64,000 nucleotides of DNA, taken from Phocaeicola salanitronis DSM 18170. Its GTDB lineage: Bacteria; Bacteroidota; Bacteroidia; Bacteroidales; Bacteroidaceae. Below, piece after piece: positions 18,502-47,660 of this stretch. The stretch lies in the NCBI RefSeq assembly GCF_000190575.1, contig NC_015164.1, forward strand, positions 3,306,501 to 3,370,500, read 5' to 3'. The notes under the pieces are model-generated. The model did no database searches. It saw only the letters and a program-made list of their open reading frames with translations, and was not told the DNA's origin. Made by a program: the position numbers and the translations under genes. Each line of letters opens with the position of its first letter. Position 1 is the first letter of the stretch.

Positions 18502-18711
18502 CGAAAGAATTTATAAAACAACAAAACAATGCAAAGACACAACACAATCGGTTTATCACGTAGCGCTTCTTCGTAGAGGGGCGAGGATGACGTGTGCTTT
18601 TGTCGGGCGAATGTTTTTGCTTGGCAAGGCATGGTGTTTTCATACGTGATGGAATTGGCAACCGCTGGAGAGCGGCGGGGGTTGTTGTGTTCTTTGGCTT
18701 CGTGTGTATTT

Positions 18712-18746
18712 GCCTTTCTTCCGGATGGGGAAGAAAGGCTTTTTAA
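18712..18746 (+). terminator. Rho-independent terminator downstream of the toxin gene
   Basis: GCCTTTCTTCC / GGGAAGAAAGGC stem with TTTTT after it. The stretch 18502-18711 between toxin and terminator has no convincing gene. Confidence 0.8.
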
Positions 18747-18871
18747 TATCCGCATTCCACCCAATTGCCTTGTAGGGGCGTATCGCATACGCTCTGAAGA
18801 CATCCGCATGGGTTAGTTGATGCATTCGGGCGTATGCGATACACCCCTACATGGGATGTTTGCGGATATTC
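18744..18871. repeat. 128-bp inverted-repeat element, copy B
   Basis: Opposite orientation to the copy at 8310. Its right end (CATGGGATGTTTGCGGATAT) is the complement of the left end of copy A. Both copies are 128 bp long, so the element has fixed ends. Confidence 0.8.
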
Positions 18872-18915
18872 AAATTTTGTTTTCTTATGTTTCATCTTTC
18901 ATTGTTTTGTTGTAT

Positions 18916-20709
18916 ATGAAAAATCATCAGATTCGCGCGAAGCGCGCCGAGGGGAGTGCGGTTTCTGCTCCCGAATATGCTGTAAATTGTTTGAATGTTG
19001 ATATTATCCTTGCAAAAGGACGGAGCGACGTGCGTGAATTGTCTGTCCGTCTTTATACTTCCGCTTACCGGCTGATGGGTGTCGCTGCCCGGCAGGCATC
19101 CTCAAGCAAGGCGATACGTACGTGGCATTTCGAAGTCTCTTCATCCGATGCCTGGACGGGCGGGACGTATCGGGCTTTTGTTTATGTCAACGGCGTTCCA
19201 AGCTGGAAAGCGGAATTGTTTCTTTACACGGGCGAAGGCATTGATTCGAGTGCCCGTTTGGAAAGCCTGGAGCCTTCTTCGCCCGAAATGCTCTTTGCCG
19301 GGCGGTTGGCTTTCCGGTCGTGGTGGCCTGTTTTGGAAGGCTTTCATCTTGACGAGGATTTCATCGTCCGTTTCATGGAGCAAATCCGGCTCTTTACGCA
19401 AAATATAGAGACGAAGGCATGGGCTTCGGTACCTCCGCTTCAAGTGACGGGCGATGCCGATTGGGCGGAGCGGTTCGCTTCGTTGGTATTGGTTCCTTGC
19501 GTTAAGGAGGAATGGGGGAAAGAATGCGTGCTGACCGAGGTGAGCGGGGCGGATGATGATATGCTTTCCCTTCACTTGTTGGAGCGGGTGTGTTATCTGG
19601 TAGGTGCCCATATCGCTCCGGATACGGTATTTGTTTTTCACGGAGCCACTCTGACCATGGAATGGCTGAATGCTGATTACTACCCTTATTTCTCGCTCTT
19701 CGAGAATGAAGACACGTGTTTCCGTCTGCCCGAAACGCTTCTTACCGAAAGGAAGACGGAGCTTGAAGGCTTCTCTCCGGATGAAACGGAAATGCCGGAA
19801 GCGGCAGAAGTACAGGGCGAGGAAAGGAAACCTGCCTTGCAGCGGTTGGAAGAAATGGTAGGTCTTTCGCGGGTGAAAGACGAACTGTGCGAGGCTTGCG
19901 CGATGGCTTTGTTCACCCGGCGCCGCAAGGAATTAGGGCTGGAAGTTTCGGCAGAGAATCGTAATCATTTCTTGTTCTTGGGCAGTCCGGGTACGGGGAA
20001 AACCACCGTTGCCCGCCTGATAGGGGAAATCTACCATGAAATGGGATTGCTCTCACGTGGGCATACCGTAGAGACGAACCGCGCGAAACTGATAGGCGAG
20101 TTCATCGGTCAGACCGAGCAAAAAACCTGTGCCGCGATAGCTGAGGCCCGTGGCGGGGTGCTTTTCATTGACGAGGCTTACACACTTGTTCACGAAGACG
20201 ATTCGCGCGACTTCGGCAAGGAAGTGATTCATGCTTTGATGACCGTTCTTTCCGAACCGAATCCCGACCTGATAGTCATCCTGGCGGGTTATGAAATGCA
20301 GATGCAGGCGTTGTTCCGCCTGAATCCGGGGCTGGACAGCCGCTTCCCGCTCCGCCTTCACTTTGATGACTTCACATCGGACGAATTGACGGAAATGGCG
20401 CGGCACTTGTTGGCGGAGCATAACTTCGAACTGAGCGAGGCGGCAGACGTCCGCTTGGCGAAACTGGTAGAAAAAGCCGTCTTGCATAAGGATGAGCATT
20501 TCGGCAACGGCCGCTGGGTACACAATCTGGTAGAGCACGGCATCTTGAAGTGCATGGCGAAACGGGTGATGGCGTTGCCGCTTTCCACCGAATCCTCCGA
20601 ATTGTTCCGCTGGATAGAGGAAACGGATGTCGCCGGAGCCGAACCTGCCTTCCTTTATGAAAACGCCCCGAAGGTTGCATTGGCGAGGCGCATCGGCTTC
20701 ACCGCTTGA
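18916..20709 (+). CDS. CbxX/CfxQ-type AAA+ ATPase with unknown N-terminal domain
   Basis: About 597 residues from the ATG at 18916 (MKNHQIRAKRAEGSA); the frame is open further upstream but only through a repeat element. The first 290 residues match nothing I recognise. The C-terminal half is an AAA+ module of the CbxX class: Walker A FLGSPGTGKTTVARL, Walker B GVLFIDEAYTL, sensor and arginine-finger region LDSRFPLRLHF, then a helical lid. CbxX-type ATPases remodel protein complexes (rubisco activases, EccA of type VII secretion). No partner gene is adjacent, so its client is unknown. Confidence 0.8.
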   Translation: MKNHQIRAKRAEGSAVSAPEYAVNCLNVDIILAKGRSDVRELSVRLYTSAYRLMGVAARQASSSKAIRTWHFEVSSSDAWTGGTYRAFVYVNGVPSWKAELFLYTGEGIDSSARLESLEPSSPEMLFAGRLAFRSWWPVLEGFHLDEDFIVRFMEQIRLFTQNIETKAWASVPPLQVTGDADWAERFASLVLVPCVKEEWGKECVLTEVSGADDDMLSLHLLERVCYLVGAHIAPDTVFVFHGATLTMEWLNADYYPYFSLFENEDTCFRLPETLLTERKTELEGFSPDETEMPEAAEVQGEERKPALQRLEEMVGLSRVKDELCEACAMALFTRRRKELGLEVSAENRNHFLFLGSPGTGKTTVARLIGEIYHEMGLLSRGHTVETNRAKLIGEFIGQTEQKTCAAIAEARGGVLFIDEAYTLVHEDDSRDFGKEVIHALMTVLSEPNPDLIVILAGYEMQMQALFRLNPGLDSRFPLRLHFDDFTSDELTEMARHLLAEHNFELSEAADVRLAKLVEKAVLHKDEHFGNGRWVHNLVEHGILKCMAKRVMALPLSTESSELFRWIEETDVAGAEPAFLYENAPKVALARRIGFTA

Positions 20710-38552: not shown

Positions 38553-38578
38553 GAGACAACAATTAAACATTATATAAA

Positions 38579-39712
38579 ATGAAATTATTCGATGTATATC
38601 CTCTCTTTGACATTAACATTGTCAAGGGAAAAGCCTGCCACGTGTGGGATGACAAAGGACAAGAATACCTTGACCTGTACGGAGGGCACGCCGTTATCTC
38701 CATCGGGCATTCACACCCGCATTATGTGGAAATGATAAGCAAACAAGTTGCTATGCTGGGATTCTACTCCAACTCGGTCATTAACAAGCTGCAACAGGAA
38801 GTTGCCGACCGGTTGGGAGCGATGTGCGGCTATGACGATTACCAGCTGTTCTTAATCAATTCAGGAGCCGAAGCCAATGAAAATGCCCTGAAACTGGCGT
38901 CTTTCTATAACGGACGCACACGCATTGTTTCTTTCGGCAAAGCTTTCCACGGACGTACCTCGCTGGCGGTAGAAGTGACCGACAATCCGAAAATCATCGC
39001 TCCTGTCAACGCCAACCAACATGTTACCTACCTGCCGCTAAATGATATAGAAGCCATGAAAGCCGAACTGGCAAAAGGCGATGTCTGCGCCGTTATCATT
39101 GAAGGTATTCAAGGGATAGGCGGCATCCGGATACCCGATACAGACTTTATGAAAGCTTTGCGCCAAACTTGCGACGCAAACAACACCGTACTGATTCTGG
39201 ACGAAATCCAGTCGGGTTACGGTCGAAGCGGCAAGTTCTTCGCTCACCAATACAGTGGCATCCGCCCCGATATCATTACTGTAGCCAAAGGAATCGGCAA
39301 CGGTTTCCCCATGGGAGGCGTACTCATCAGTCCGAAATTCAAACCCGTTTACGGACAATTAGGCACGACTTTCGGCGGTAATCACCTGGCTTGTGCCGCA
39401 GCAATTGCCGTACTGGATGTCATAAAAGAAGAGAAGCTGATAGAAAATGCGGCAAAAGTCGGCACACATTTATTAGAAGAACTGAAGTGTTTCAAGGGCA
39501 TCAAGGAAGTGCGCGGATGTGGTCTGATGATAGGGCTGGAATTTGAAGAGCCTGTTAAAGAGCTGCGTACGAAACTGCTCTTCGAGCAAAAAGTTTTTAC
39601 AGGTGTAAGCGGAACCAATGTCATCCGTCTGCTTCCTCCTCTCTGCCTCAGCATGAACGAAGCGGATGAGTTCCTCACTCGCTTGCAAAATGCGATGAAA
39701 ACAATAAGGTAA
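38579..39712 (+). CDS. argD: Acetyl(succinyl)ornithine aminotransferase
   Basis: PLP aminotransferase of arginine synthesis. 377 residues, class III fold: LYGGHAVISIGHSHPHYVEM near the N-terminus, NSGAEANENALKLA, the aspartate in LILDEIQSGYGR and the PLP lysine in TVAKGIGNGFPMGG. In Bacteroides the natural substrate is probably N-succinylornithine, as argued from the known succinyl pathway. Last gene of the cluster. Confidence 0.94.
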   Translation: MKLFDVYPLFDINIVKGKACHVWDDKGQEYLDLYGGHAVISIGHSHPHYVEMISKQVAMLGFYSNSVINKLQQEVADRLGAMCGYDDYQLFLINSGAEANENALKLASFYNGRTRIVSFGKAFHGRTSLAVEVTDNPKIIAPVNANQHVTYLPLNDIEAMKAELAKGDVCAVIIEGIQGIGGIRIPDTDFMKALRQTCDANNTVLILDEIQSGYGRSGKFFAHQYSGIRPDIITVAKGIGNGFPMGGVLISPKFKPVYGQLGTTFGGNHLACAAAIAVLDVIKEEKLIENAAKVGTHLLEELKCFKGIKEVRGCGLMIGLEFEEPVKELRTKLLFEQKVFTGVSGTNVIRLLPPLCLSMNEADEFLTRLQNAMKTIR

Positions 39713-39726
39713 TAAATTTGCATAGT

Positions 39727-39802
39727 AGCACTACCTGTCTAAGGGAATGAAGTGAAGTATCTTCAATGTCTACGAGATGCTTCACTTCGTTCAATATAAC
39801 AA
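39727..39802. repeat. Degraded TGTCATCCTGAGCG-type palindrome
   Basis: Retains GAAGTGAAGTATCTT facing AGATGCTTCACTTCGTTCA; ends eroded. It may terminate the arginine transcript, but has no clear T-run. Confidence 0.5.
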
Positions 39803-39816
39803 AATAGAAAAATAAA

Positions 39817-39898
39817 TAAAAAATCCCCCGTTAGAGGACGAGGGAACCTAATGTTTTCACAACGGAATAATCCTTATTGTGATTTGCTTCAAATTAGT
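39817..39898 (-). ncRNA. tracrRNA-like RNA (orphan, type II CRISPR)
   Basis: About 80 nt on the minus strand. Order: anti-repeat ACTAATTTGAAGCAAATCAC (39898 down to about 39877), a nexus-like hairpin AAGGATTATTCCGTT, the run GTGAAAACAT, and a terminator CCCTCGT-CCTCTA-ACGGGGG followed by ATTTTTT. The anti-repeat is complementary over 20 positions, with one bulge, to the repeat-like sequence at 40027-40073. A consensus promoter starts it exactly at the anti-repeat. No Cas9, Cas1 or Cas2 gene lies in the window. Another identity is possible, but the four parts in order are what tracrRNAs have. Confidence 0.75.
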
Positions 39899-39903
39899 GA
39901 GAA

Positions 39904-39934
39904 CAAAGTTAAGGAAAAAGTTTGAAAAGACAAA
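39904..39934 (-). promoter_or_regulatory. Promoter of the tracrRNA-like gene
   Basis: On the minus strand TTTG (39934-39931), 19 nt, TAACTTTG (39911-39904): an exact Bacteroides promoter. The expected start about 7 nt on coincides with the first base of the anti-repeat. Confidence 0.8.
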
Positions 39935-39951
39935 TTTTGTCGCAAAAAATT

Positions 39952-39982
39952 CATAGCTTTGGGAAAAATATATAAAGCTATG
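39952..39982. other. Hairpin CATAGCTTT / AAAGCTATG
   Basis: 9-bp perfect stem with a 13-nt A-rich loop between the tracrRNA promoter and the CRISPR-like repeat. Could be a terminator. Function unknown. Confidence 0.5.
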
Positions 39983-40026
39983 AAACCAAAACACATCGTG
40001 CCGAGGCCCCTTCAGGCATAGGCGTA

Positions 40027-40073
40027 ATTGTTTTCAATAGTTCAAATATATTAATTTGAAAGCAAATCACAAC
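40027..40073 (-). CRISPR. Single degenerate type II CRISPR-like repeat
   Basis: On the minus strand 47 nt beginning GTTGTGATTTGCTTTCAAAT. It agrees at about 41 of 47 positions with the 47-bp type II-C repeat of Bacteroides fragilis as I remember it, and it is complementary to the anti-repeat of the neighbouring tracrRNA-like gene. The differences are concentrated in the 3' half, as in terminal repeats. No second repeat follows at the expected 30-nt spacing on either side, so this is a remnant and not an array. Confidence 0.6.
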
Positions 40074-40109
40074 TGCTTTCAGAAACTGGATACGGCTTTG
40101 GTAGAAGTC

Positions 40110-41045
40110 AAATCGGTAAGTGTAATATTATGAAAAACACGGACGCTTGTATCGGCTGATGAGGGCGTTCATGTTGTGTAGCGTGTATGCTTGTATGAAG
40201 CAATACGGGCGCATGTGTTCTGTATGGATATGATATTAGCTGGCGGGTGCAAGTTCCCAATGAATCTTAATAGCGGAAATCATATTGCCAAGATCAAGAA
40301 TGTCTGAATCTGAATGAAGCTGGCGGTAAGTACATAGTCTGACGGACAGAAACTTCATATAAGGCATATAACTGTGGGTAAGATTGCTAAACAAACTAAA
40401 CCTTATAGCAATATTCGGAACGGTTGGTGTAAATGGAACAGATATAAGATGGAAAGTCAATATCCTTACCCGAGGAGGTCTTACGGACATACCGAATATT
40501 TTTACAAAATGTATGGAGTAATGCTTGCCGCGATAAGCCGGCAGAAGTCATAGTAATGGGGTAGATATGTTCCATGAAGGACTGGCCTGACAATTAAACG
40601 ATAGTTACTGAAAGTTGCCTTATGAAAGAATGCAGAAAACATCAGCCGCTAATGTCTGCCCTCAAAGGGACAGGATGGAATCCGACAGGTATGAGGAAGT
40701 GCAGACTTTCGCTGGATTGGGTACTACCATCTTACACAGATAAAGTGTCTTTGTATTGAAACAGACGAATGGTTAAGGTGACGGATACGTATGTATAGTT
40801 GAACATCATGGAAGATAGTCAAGACCAGAGTGGAGAGCCTAAAGAAATATGATGCCCTTGATTGTCAGGTATATCAGTGGGGAGACATTCACCTTGGCTA
40901 TTGGTGTGTAGCGAACAACCGCTTGCTAACTTCCGCAATGTCTAATAATAGGAAGCGCCGTATGCGGAACGGACGTACGGTGGTGTGAGAGGTTGGAAAA
41001 CGAAAGTAGGAAGAAAACCATTTCGTTTTCCTCCTACTCGATTAT
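40110..41045 (+). mobile_element. Group II intron, RT mostly deleted (5' end uncertain)
   Basis: The 3' end is clear: domain V at about 40953-40988 (AGC triad in GAAGCGCCGTATGCGG, then GGACGTACGGTGG) and domain VI at about 41000-41042 (GTAGGAAGAAAAC / GTTTTCCTCCTAC with a bulged A). Upstream is a structured domain I to III region, including GGTGCAAGTTCCC and GCAGAAGTCATAGTA. A second, reversed copy of part of domain I lies at 47385-47660. The 5' end is not fixed: a GTGCC at 39998 preceded by AACACAT could pair with ATGTGTT at 40213, but that would place the CRISPR-like repeat inside domain I. The insertion site is intergenic, between argD and the first SusD. Confidence 0.75.
40803..40988 (+). 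pseudogene. C-terminal remnant of the intron reverse transcriptase
   Basis: An open stretch after the stop codon at 40800-40802 reads TSWKIVKTRVESLKKYDAL ... YQWGDIHLGYWCVANNRLLT and ends with a stop at 40986-40988, inside domain V. This is the C-terminal tail of group II intron maturases (WGnxRxGYWrxAnS..L..A). The polymerase part is missing, so splicing or mobility would need a protein from elsewhere. Confidence 0.7.
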
Positions 41046-47384: not shown

Positions 47385-47660
47385 AGACCTCCCCAGTTAA
47401 GGACATGCTCTTTCCATCTTATACCTGCTTGATTTACTTAGGGCATTTCCGTATAGCTATCGGACTTTGACTTGTTCAGTAGTCTTATCCATGCCCGCCA
47501 GCCTTATATCAAGTTTCTGTTCGTCAGGCCAGATGTTTGCCGACAGCTTCCTTCAGATTCCAACTCACGATGGACACCCTTGCTCTTGGCTATACACTTT
47601 CCCGCTATCGGGCGTGTTACGGACTTGCACCGGTTAGAGAATGTTCGTGCTGGGCGAACG
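47385..47660 (-). mobile_element. Group II intron fragment (domain I), reversed
   Basis: On the minus strand it reads CCGGTGCAAGTCCG ... GAATCTGAAGGAAGCTGTCGG ... GACGAACAGAAACTTGATAT ... ATAAGATGGAAAGAGCATGT, which aligns in order with 40245-40500 of the intron upstream of SusD. Both ends and all later domains are missing. It abuts the transposase fragment on one side and the terminator at 47664 on the other. Confidence 0.75.

Follow-up and report, generated by a model that had tools for sequence, protein, structure and literature searches.

A tracrRNA gene and a single CRISPR repeat

The stretch of DNA analysed here, 64 kb long and hereafter called the window, carries on its minus strand a tracrRNA gene (39818..39904), recognised by a covariance model (R1), by its fold and by comparison with an intact locus. 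Within it lie, on the same strand, an anti-repeat (39876-39896), a nexus-like hairpin (approximately 39857-39882 when folded alone, its 5' arm overlapping the anti-repeat) and a terminator apparent from the fold (approximately 39818-39845). Sequence and motif scan together predict a promoter, TTTG-N19-TAACTTTG, at 39904..39934 (minus strand), and this promoter is identical in the related genome G018 (locus L013). The exact N19 form occurs twice per strand across the 64 kb by motif scan, so that the motif alone is weak evidence. Model R1 rests on 28 tracrRNAs from genomes other than the window's own, each of them adjacent to the start of a cas9 as judged by motif. Against this model, which contains not the window sequence but its G018 twin, identical over 39818-39898, positions 39818-39898 (minus) score 105.3 bits (E 3.5e-20), exactly as the intact neighbour does. 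The 25-base core is unchanged, as it is in 33 of 33 cas9-adjacent copies. By sequence and fold, 39818-39904 (minus) is thus a type II-C tracrRNA gene with predicted promoter and terminator. The original prediction had proposed a minus-strand unit of promoter, anti-repeat, nexus-like hairpin and terminator, which motif scan and fold bear out, and had read it as a type II-C tracrRNA, with which the covariance model search of the region agrees.

A single 47-nt CRISPR direct repeat lies at 40027..40073 (minus), where it scores 60.5 bits for Rfam family RF01362 (CRISPR-DR49), above the family's gathering score of 41; the proposed type II repeat identity of the 47 nt was therefore upheld. Such an element had been expected 130 nt from the RNA unit; it is present, but at approximately 122 nt. 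No other copy with three or fewer mismatches occurs in the genome. For Bacteroides salanitronis BL78T, a chicken caecum isolate with one chromosome and three plasmids, the genome paper gives 'CRISPR repeats 0' (PMC3111984).

The claimed complementarity of the 47 nt to the anti-repeat was confirmed by folding. The two pair over 12 and 9 bp around a one-base bulge, with a further 4 bp, at -25.9 kcal/mol, whereas 500 shuffled repeats reached a mean of -8.1 and a best value of -19.0 kcal/mol against the same anti-repeat. The repeat of the intact G018 locus pairs with it at -30.2 kcal/mol. Chance resemblance of the tracrRNA and the repeat to their families was considered and is ruled out by the covariance model and RF01362 scores.

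The repeat is flanked by two spacer-like stretches (both minus strand). One, at 39998..40026, is 29 nt long, the length of one spacer, and begins at the deletion junction described below. The other, at 40074..40103, is by position alone a possible last spacer and the putative guide of a crRNA from the window repeat. Spacers of the intact locus measure 30-31 nt if its repeat is counted as 46 nt, and hence 29-30 nt by the 47-nt repeat. Two parts of 39998-40026 and two 20-nt parts of 40074-40103 were without a viral match in searches for exact matches only, by which mismatched protospacers would be missed. A similarity search of a phage collection gave no match.

The intact counterpart and the cas9 breakpoint

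To the left of the tracrRNA gene lies a class-III aminotransferase gene (38579..39712, plus strand; Pfam Aminotran_3), probably argD if named from its neighbourhood, which is the left-hand anchor common to the window and the intact locus. Positions 38577-39997 of the window align at 98.3% identity with positions 5138-6559 of L042, on contig 131 of G018. The alignment runs from the aminotransferase gene through the tracrRNA and the region upstream of cas9 to the sixth codon of cas9. Beyond it, L042 encodes Cas9 (1512 aa), Cas1 (310 aa) and Cas2 (110 aa), identified by the PADLOC profiles Cas9, Cas1_II and Cas2_II, and carries an array of 19 repeats, 18 of them near-identical and one degenerate. 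The window repeat differs from that of L042 at three of 46 bases compared, all three being G/C in L042 and A/T in the window.

The point of departure can be placed to the base. The window retains ATG AAA CCA AAA CAC ATC (39980..39997, plus strand), encoding Met-Lys-Pro-Lys-His-Ile and identical to the start of the L042 Cas9, with the region upstream of this six-codon remnant also unchanged relative to L042. After 39997 the window leaves the cas9 frame and passes into the 29 nt of spacer length, followed by the one repeat. At this junction, 8 of 10 positions are shared by the cas9 side, AAAACACATC, and the end of the repeat, AAATCACAAC.

The layout conforms to that of type II-C loci in the Bacteroidales. 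In G018 and in Prevotella nigrescens (NZ_CP082843.1), as in the window, the tracrRNA on the minus strand directly precedes cas9 on the plus strand; the tracrRNA cores of these loci are related to that of the window, and G018 has the same promoter and repeat family. Unlike them, the window lacks cas1, cas2 and the part of cas9 past codon six, and retains a single repeat.

Within the genus, 24 of 61 genomes match window positions 39780-40080 at E <= 0.001, some of them weakly or by the repeat only; G018, which belongs to another species, gives the best match. Loci in G059, G045, G047 and G009 lie at other genomic places and align past the tracrRNA to or near the cas9 start. We also surveyed the aminotransferase gene across named species, its top-ranked relatives coming from Bacteroides and Phocaeicola. 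Among the best 80 of 580 relatives, blastn found no tracrRNA or repeat match in these loci, so that G018 is the one genome in this analysis with an intact locus at the site.

Absence of cas partners

The window had been described as lacking Cas9, Cas1 and Cas2 throughout its 64 kb, and indeed queries for all three gave no tblastn match in it, while all matched two control loci. The wider question was whether a cas9 lies elsewhere in the genome, which comprises 4,308,663 bases on four contigs, the chromosome accounting for 4,242,803. A Cas9 protein search that picked up pieces down to 28-35% identity gave matches in 21 of the 61 genomes of the genus and none in the window's own. A profile of five Cas9 proteins also found nothing there, with matches in four other genomes (open frames of 1232-1426 aa). 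The Cas9 family model TIGR01865 had no match in the genome either, although this model matched only four of 14 controls and exceeded its cut-off in none, and PF18541 was uninformative as a Cas9 probe, matching no control genome. A Cas1 search of the genome was empty, with no positive control in that search.

Of the two readings originally offered, a dead remnant or an RNA pair serving a Cas9 encoded elsewhere, the first is sustained by the intact G018 locus and the cas9 breakpoint. The second failed where a cas9 was sought in the rest of the genome, neither the chromosome nor the other three contigs giving a match, and a pair acting in trans with a Cas9 elsewhere in the genome is rejected on that ground. 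A broader form of the idea would have the tracrRNA and repeat retained as a stand-alone guide RNA pair for immunity or gene regulation, their Cas9 partner being supplied in trans by plasmids or other mobile DNA that is gained and lost. Nothing is damaged in the promoter, anti-repeat, core or terminator, or in the pairing with the repeat, and in related bacteria II-C Cas9 genes occur on records called plasmids. However, all four contigs are devoid of a Cas9 match, there is a single repeat, the exact cas9 breakpoint speaks of loss and not of assembly, and several Cas9-less tracrRNAs of the family are altered. We consider this form highly improbable.

A probable deletion scar and its age

We are confident, on the alignments and searches above, that the locus is the remnant of a type II-C CRISPR-Cas9 system from which cas9 beyond its sixth codon, cas1, cas2 and nearly all of the array have been lost, most likely in one deletion. 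The arrangement in G018 would represent the ancestral state, as judged from this one related species, the window's own species being represented by one strain. By the distances in L042, a single deletion would have removed some 6-7 kb, and it may have been helped by the short similarity between AAAACACATC at the cas9 start and AAATCACAAC at the repeat end. The promoter is predicted still to yield a tracrRNA of approximately 80 nt, which would do nothing, because there is no Cas9 for it to load. Drift is to be expected in such a leftover, and seems to have affected some of the family's Cas9-less tracrRNAs; the window's own tracrRNA has none of the changes found in that class. The leftover pieces are probably non-functional, and we regard the locus as a dead or dying type II-C system, recently deleted, with its RNA gene left behind.

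Does this integrity reflect recent loss or selection? From the tracrRNA to codon six (39818-39997), no substitution separates the window from L042 in 180 bases, against 19 in 1136 for the aminotransferase gene and 4 in 105 for an intergenic part, together 23 in 1241. The difference between 0/180 and 23/1241 gives a Fisher p of 0.10; zero change would have a chance of 0.034 under neutrality of both branches, and of approximately 0.19 under neutrality of the window's own branch only. As sequence comparisons, these counts leave selection on the remaining RNA gene neither shown nor excluded. That promoter and terminator are intact had been taken as an argument against long decay, which stands, but their integrity does not serve as a sign of function: it fits a recent loss, with function neither shown nor excluded by the sequence.

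The right-hand flank

To the right of the repeat follow 59 unplaced bases and an 87-base element, to which a sequence in another part of the genome is 83% identical. A group II intron (40220-41042) without a long open reading frame comes next, behind a palindromic-looking repeated element. The intron end near 41042 rests on a match below the gathering score. A second intron match (D1-D4) lies in inverted orientation at 47402-47574.

Conservation of the CRISPR-like sequence as part of the group II intron had been named beforehand among the findings that would overturn the prediction. It did not occur: other copies of the intron begin matching near 40230, and the tracrRNA and repeat are conserved in CRISPR loci and arrays instead, so that the CRISPR parts are rejected as intron sequence.

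The gene after the L042 array, encoding an AAA-type ATPase, has a 98.5% homologue at window positions 18916-20706 in the opposite orientation. The ATPase region as a whole (window 18510-20709, L042 14113-16312) lies approximately 19 kb away and is inverted relative to the aminotransferase gene. Being displaced as well as inverted, the homologue indicates that more than one rearrangement touched the site. Judged from these alignments, the rearrangement that relocated it had one of its ends where the CRISPR locus was lost, and a single deletion would not account for all the changes on the right-hand side.

Cas9-less tracrRNAs in the Bacteroidaceae

Precedents for such a remnant exist. In PMC6882279, a second locus of Spiroplasma syrphidicola is described as a degraded type II locus with a predicted tracrRNA and no cas genes. 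As in the window, a tracrRNA and CRISPR repeats persist there without cas genes; unlike the window, with its single repeat and traceable cas9 breakpoint, Spiroplasma keeps a nine-repeat array (PMC6882279). Degraded or cas-less loci are also treated in PMC5608340. Among the matches listed in the open-access literature, we found no paper on the present locus or on Cas9-less tracrRNAs in the Bacteroidaceae.

We surveyed 344 Bacteroidaceae genomes of at least 95% completeness, scoring the first two candidates per genome in both searches. A tracrRNA-like match was present in 139 and a Cas9 match in 156; 119 genomes had both, 37 Cas9 only and 20 the tracrRNA match only. All 20 of the latter remained without a Cas9 match when searched with the five-Cas9 profile. 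Eight of them have a weak tracrRNA match (E above 1e-9), in some cases probably due to chance. Eighteen loci were examined: 11 represent the 12 strong Cas9-less genomes, bar the window's own, and seven are second copies or suspects. Fifteen of the 18 have no Cas9, Cas1 or Cas2 match within the stretch, save one of 6e-4 in G195, and some stretches stop at a contig end near the tracrRNA (G184) or the array (G169).

The strong Cas9-less tracrRNAs, that of the window included, are altered more often than their counterparts beside cas9. The 25-base core is changed in three of the 12, and anti-repeat pairing is worse than -15 kcal/mol in four of the 12, a value computed always with the G018 repeat, so that a poor figure may partly reflect a different lost repeat. 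One or the other change affects five of 12 (two in both respects) against none of 33 beside a cas9 start (Fisher p = 6e-4 with kinship ignored, the cas9-adjacent set having been chosen by a core with at most three substitutions and the Cas9-less set by blastn). As the loci were found through their tracrRNAs, scars that lost the tracrRNA are invisible, and the figures are silent on the rate of retention.

A parallel is seen in G092, assembled as one contig (L188:7584-8187). Its tracrRNA scores 99.9 bits, and Cas9 residues 4-62 adjoin residues 1422-1510, leaving a remnant of 59 N-terminal and 89 C-terminal residues. Such cases imply that a Cas9 system should not be concluded from a tracrRNA match alone, and that the traces of some lost systems make them recognisable. 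The window would offer a base-exact example of the death of a CRISPR-Cas9 locus, in which the protein genes were lost and the guide-RNA gene was kept.

A further set of losses lies in front of dnaG (named by reading frame), where a tracrRNA occurs in 6 of 158 genomes of the genus of G104 (rows reaching past position 370). At this site G126, G077 and G142 have cas9 matches and repeats, those in G077 being split over two reading frames of 222 and 1228 aa. The other three, G100, G104 and G442, are without the stretch that lies between the tracrRNA and the array end in the former. G100 keeps the tracrRNA, with 284 unaligned bases replacing everything up to the array end. In G104 (L186:7798-7905, minus) nothing separates the anti-repeat from the final ten bases of the terminal repeat, and a junction of this kind, with a changed loop, also occurs in G442 (L226:3270-3380, minus).

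These loci bear on the suggestion that the tracrRNA unit has been kept independently of CRISPR, its terminator or hairpin now serving neighbouring genes. Core and terminator outlast the loss in the window, G092, G100, G104 and G442, and at the dnaG site the terminator stands approximately 30 bases from the dnaG reading frame. Against this, a search by tracrRNA hides the scars without one, the core is altered in other Cas9-less copies, and in the window the anti-repeat and core, which a terminator would not need, are equally intact. Such a role is, in our estimation, extremely improbable, and the deletion scar remains our reading of the window.

Guide parts in cis

In the II-C loci of these bacteria the tracrRNA and array share one strand, while the cas genes between them occupy the other. 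Loss of the cas genes consequently places the spacer-repeat in cis with the tracrRNA. In G104 and G442, the repeat and anti-repeat fold into one hairpin, followed by core and terminator, in the manner of an engineered single guide. This fusion apparently arose by deletion, as read from the two junctions, and the sequence serving as its 'guide' would derive from outside the array, past its end. In the window, order and strand would allow a single transcript, whose spacer-repeat and tracrRNA are predicted to fold with 25 repeat/anti-repeat pairs.

The long-form tracrRNA of Streptococcus pyogenes reportedly acts as a natural single guide. Like it, the window has spacer- and repeat-like sequence in cis with the tracrRNA, and the whole could fold into a single guide; unlike it, the window is without Cas9, and no promoter was found upstream of the spacer-repeat. 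That search, up to 40500, covered the form TTTG-N18..21-TAnnTTTG only. The S. pyogenes long form as a natural single-guide RNA is the topic of PMC11417352.

It might be proposed that cas loss can fuse guide parts into Cas9-free single guides, recurrently in the Bacteroidaceae, which a later Cas9 could reuse. The geometry points this way: a shared strand, the predicted 25-pair fold and the fused hairpin of G104 and G442. The missing recognisable promoter above the spacer-repeat and the changes within the Cas9-less class argue against it, and we think the proposal improbable. If any leftover guide is still in use, the fusion in G104 and G442 is the place to look.

Several loci of the family survey were otherwise unusual. 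In G195 (L180:4517-8521), whose genome gave no Cas9 match, a Cas12a gene (1264 aa) occupies the side on which cas9 would be expected, and its start is 127 bases away from the Cas9-type tracrRNA. In G184 the tracrRNA lies beside repeats of the GTCGCCCCTC...GTGGATT kind, which we take to be of subtype I-C. G169 (L178:246-5772) has a II-C tracrRNA with II-C repeat pieces 5.3 kb away and no cas match between them; the intervening genes are one partly like TmtA (PADLOC 3.3e-57, over part of the profile) and two unknown genes, and one defence system may here have been replaced by another. On contig 3 of G015, cas9 matches in two parts (114856-117507 and 184691-186619) approximately 67 kb apart, as if a large element had inserted. 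Finally, two copies of the tracrRNA precede a single cas9 in G090 (L187:4933-5762); they share a strand, are separated by 745 bases and do not differ in their 80-base cores.
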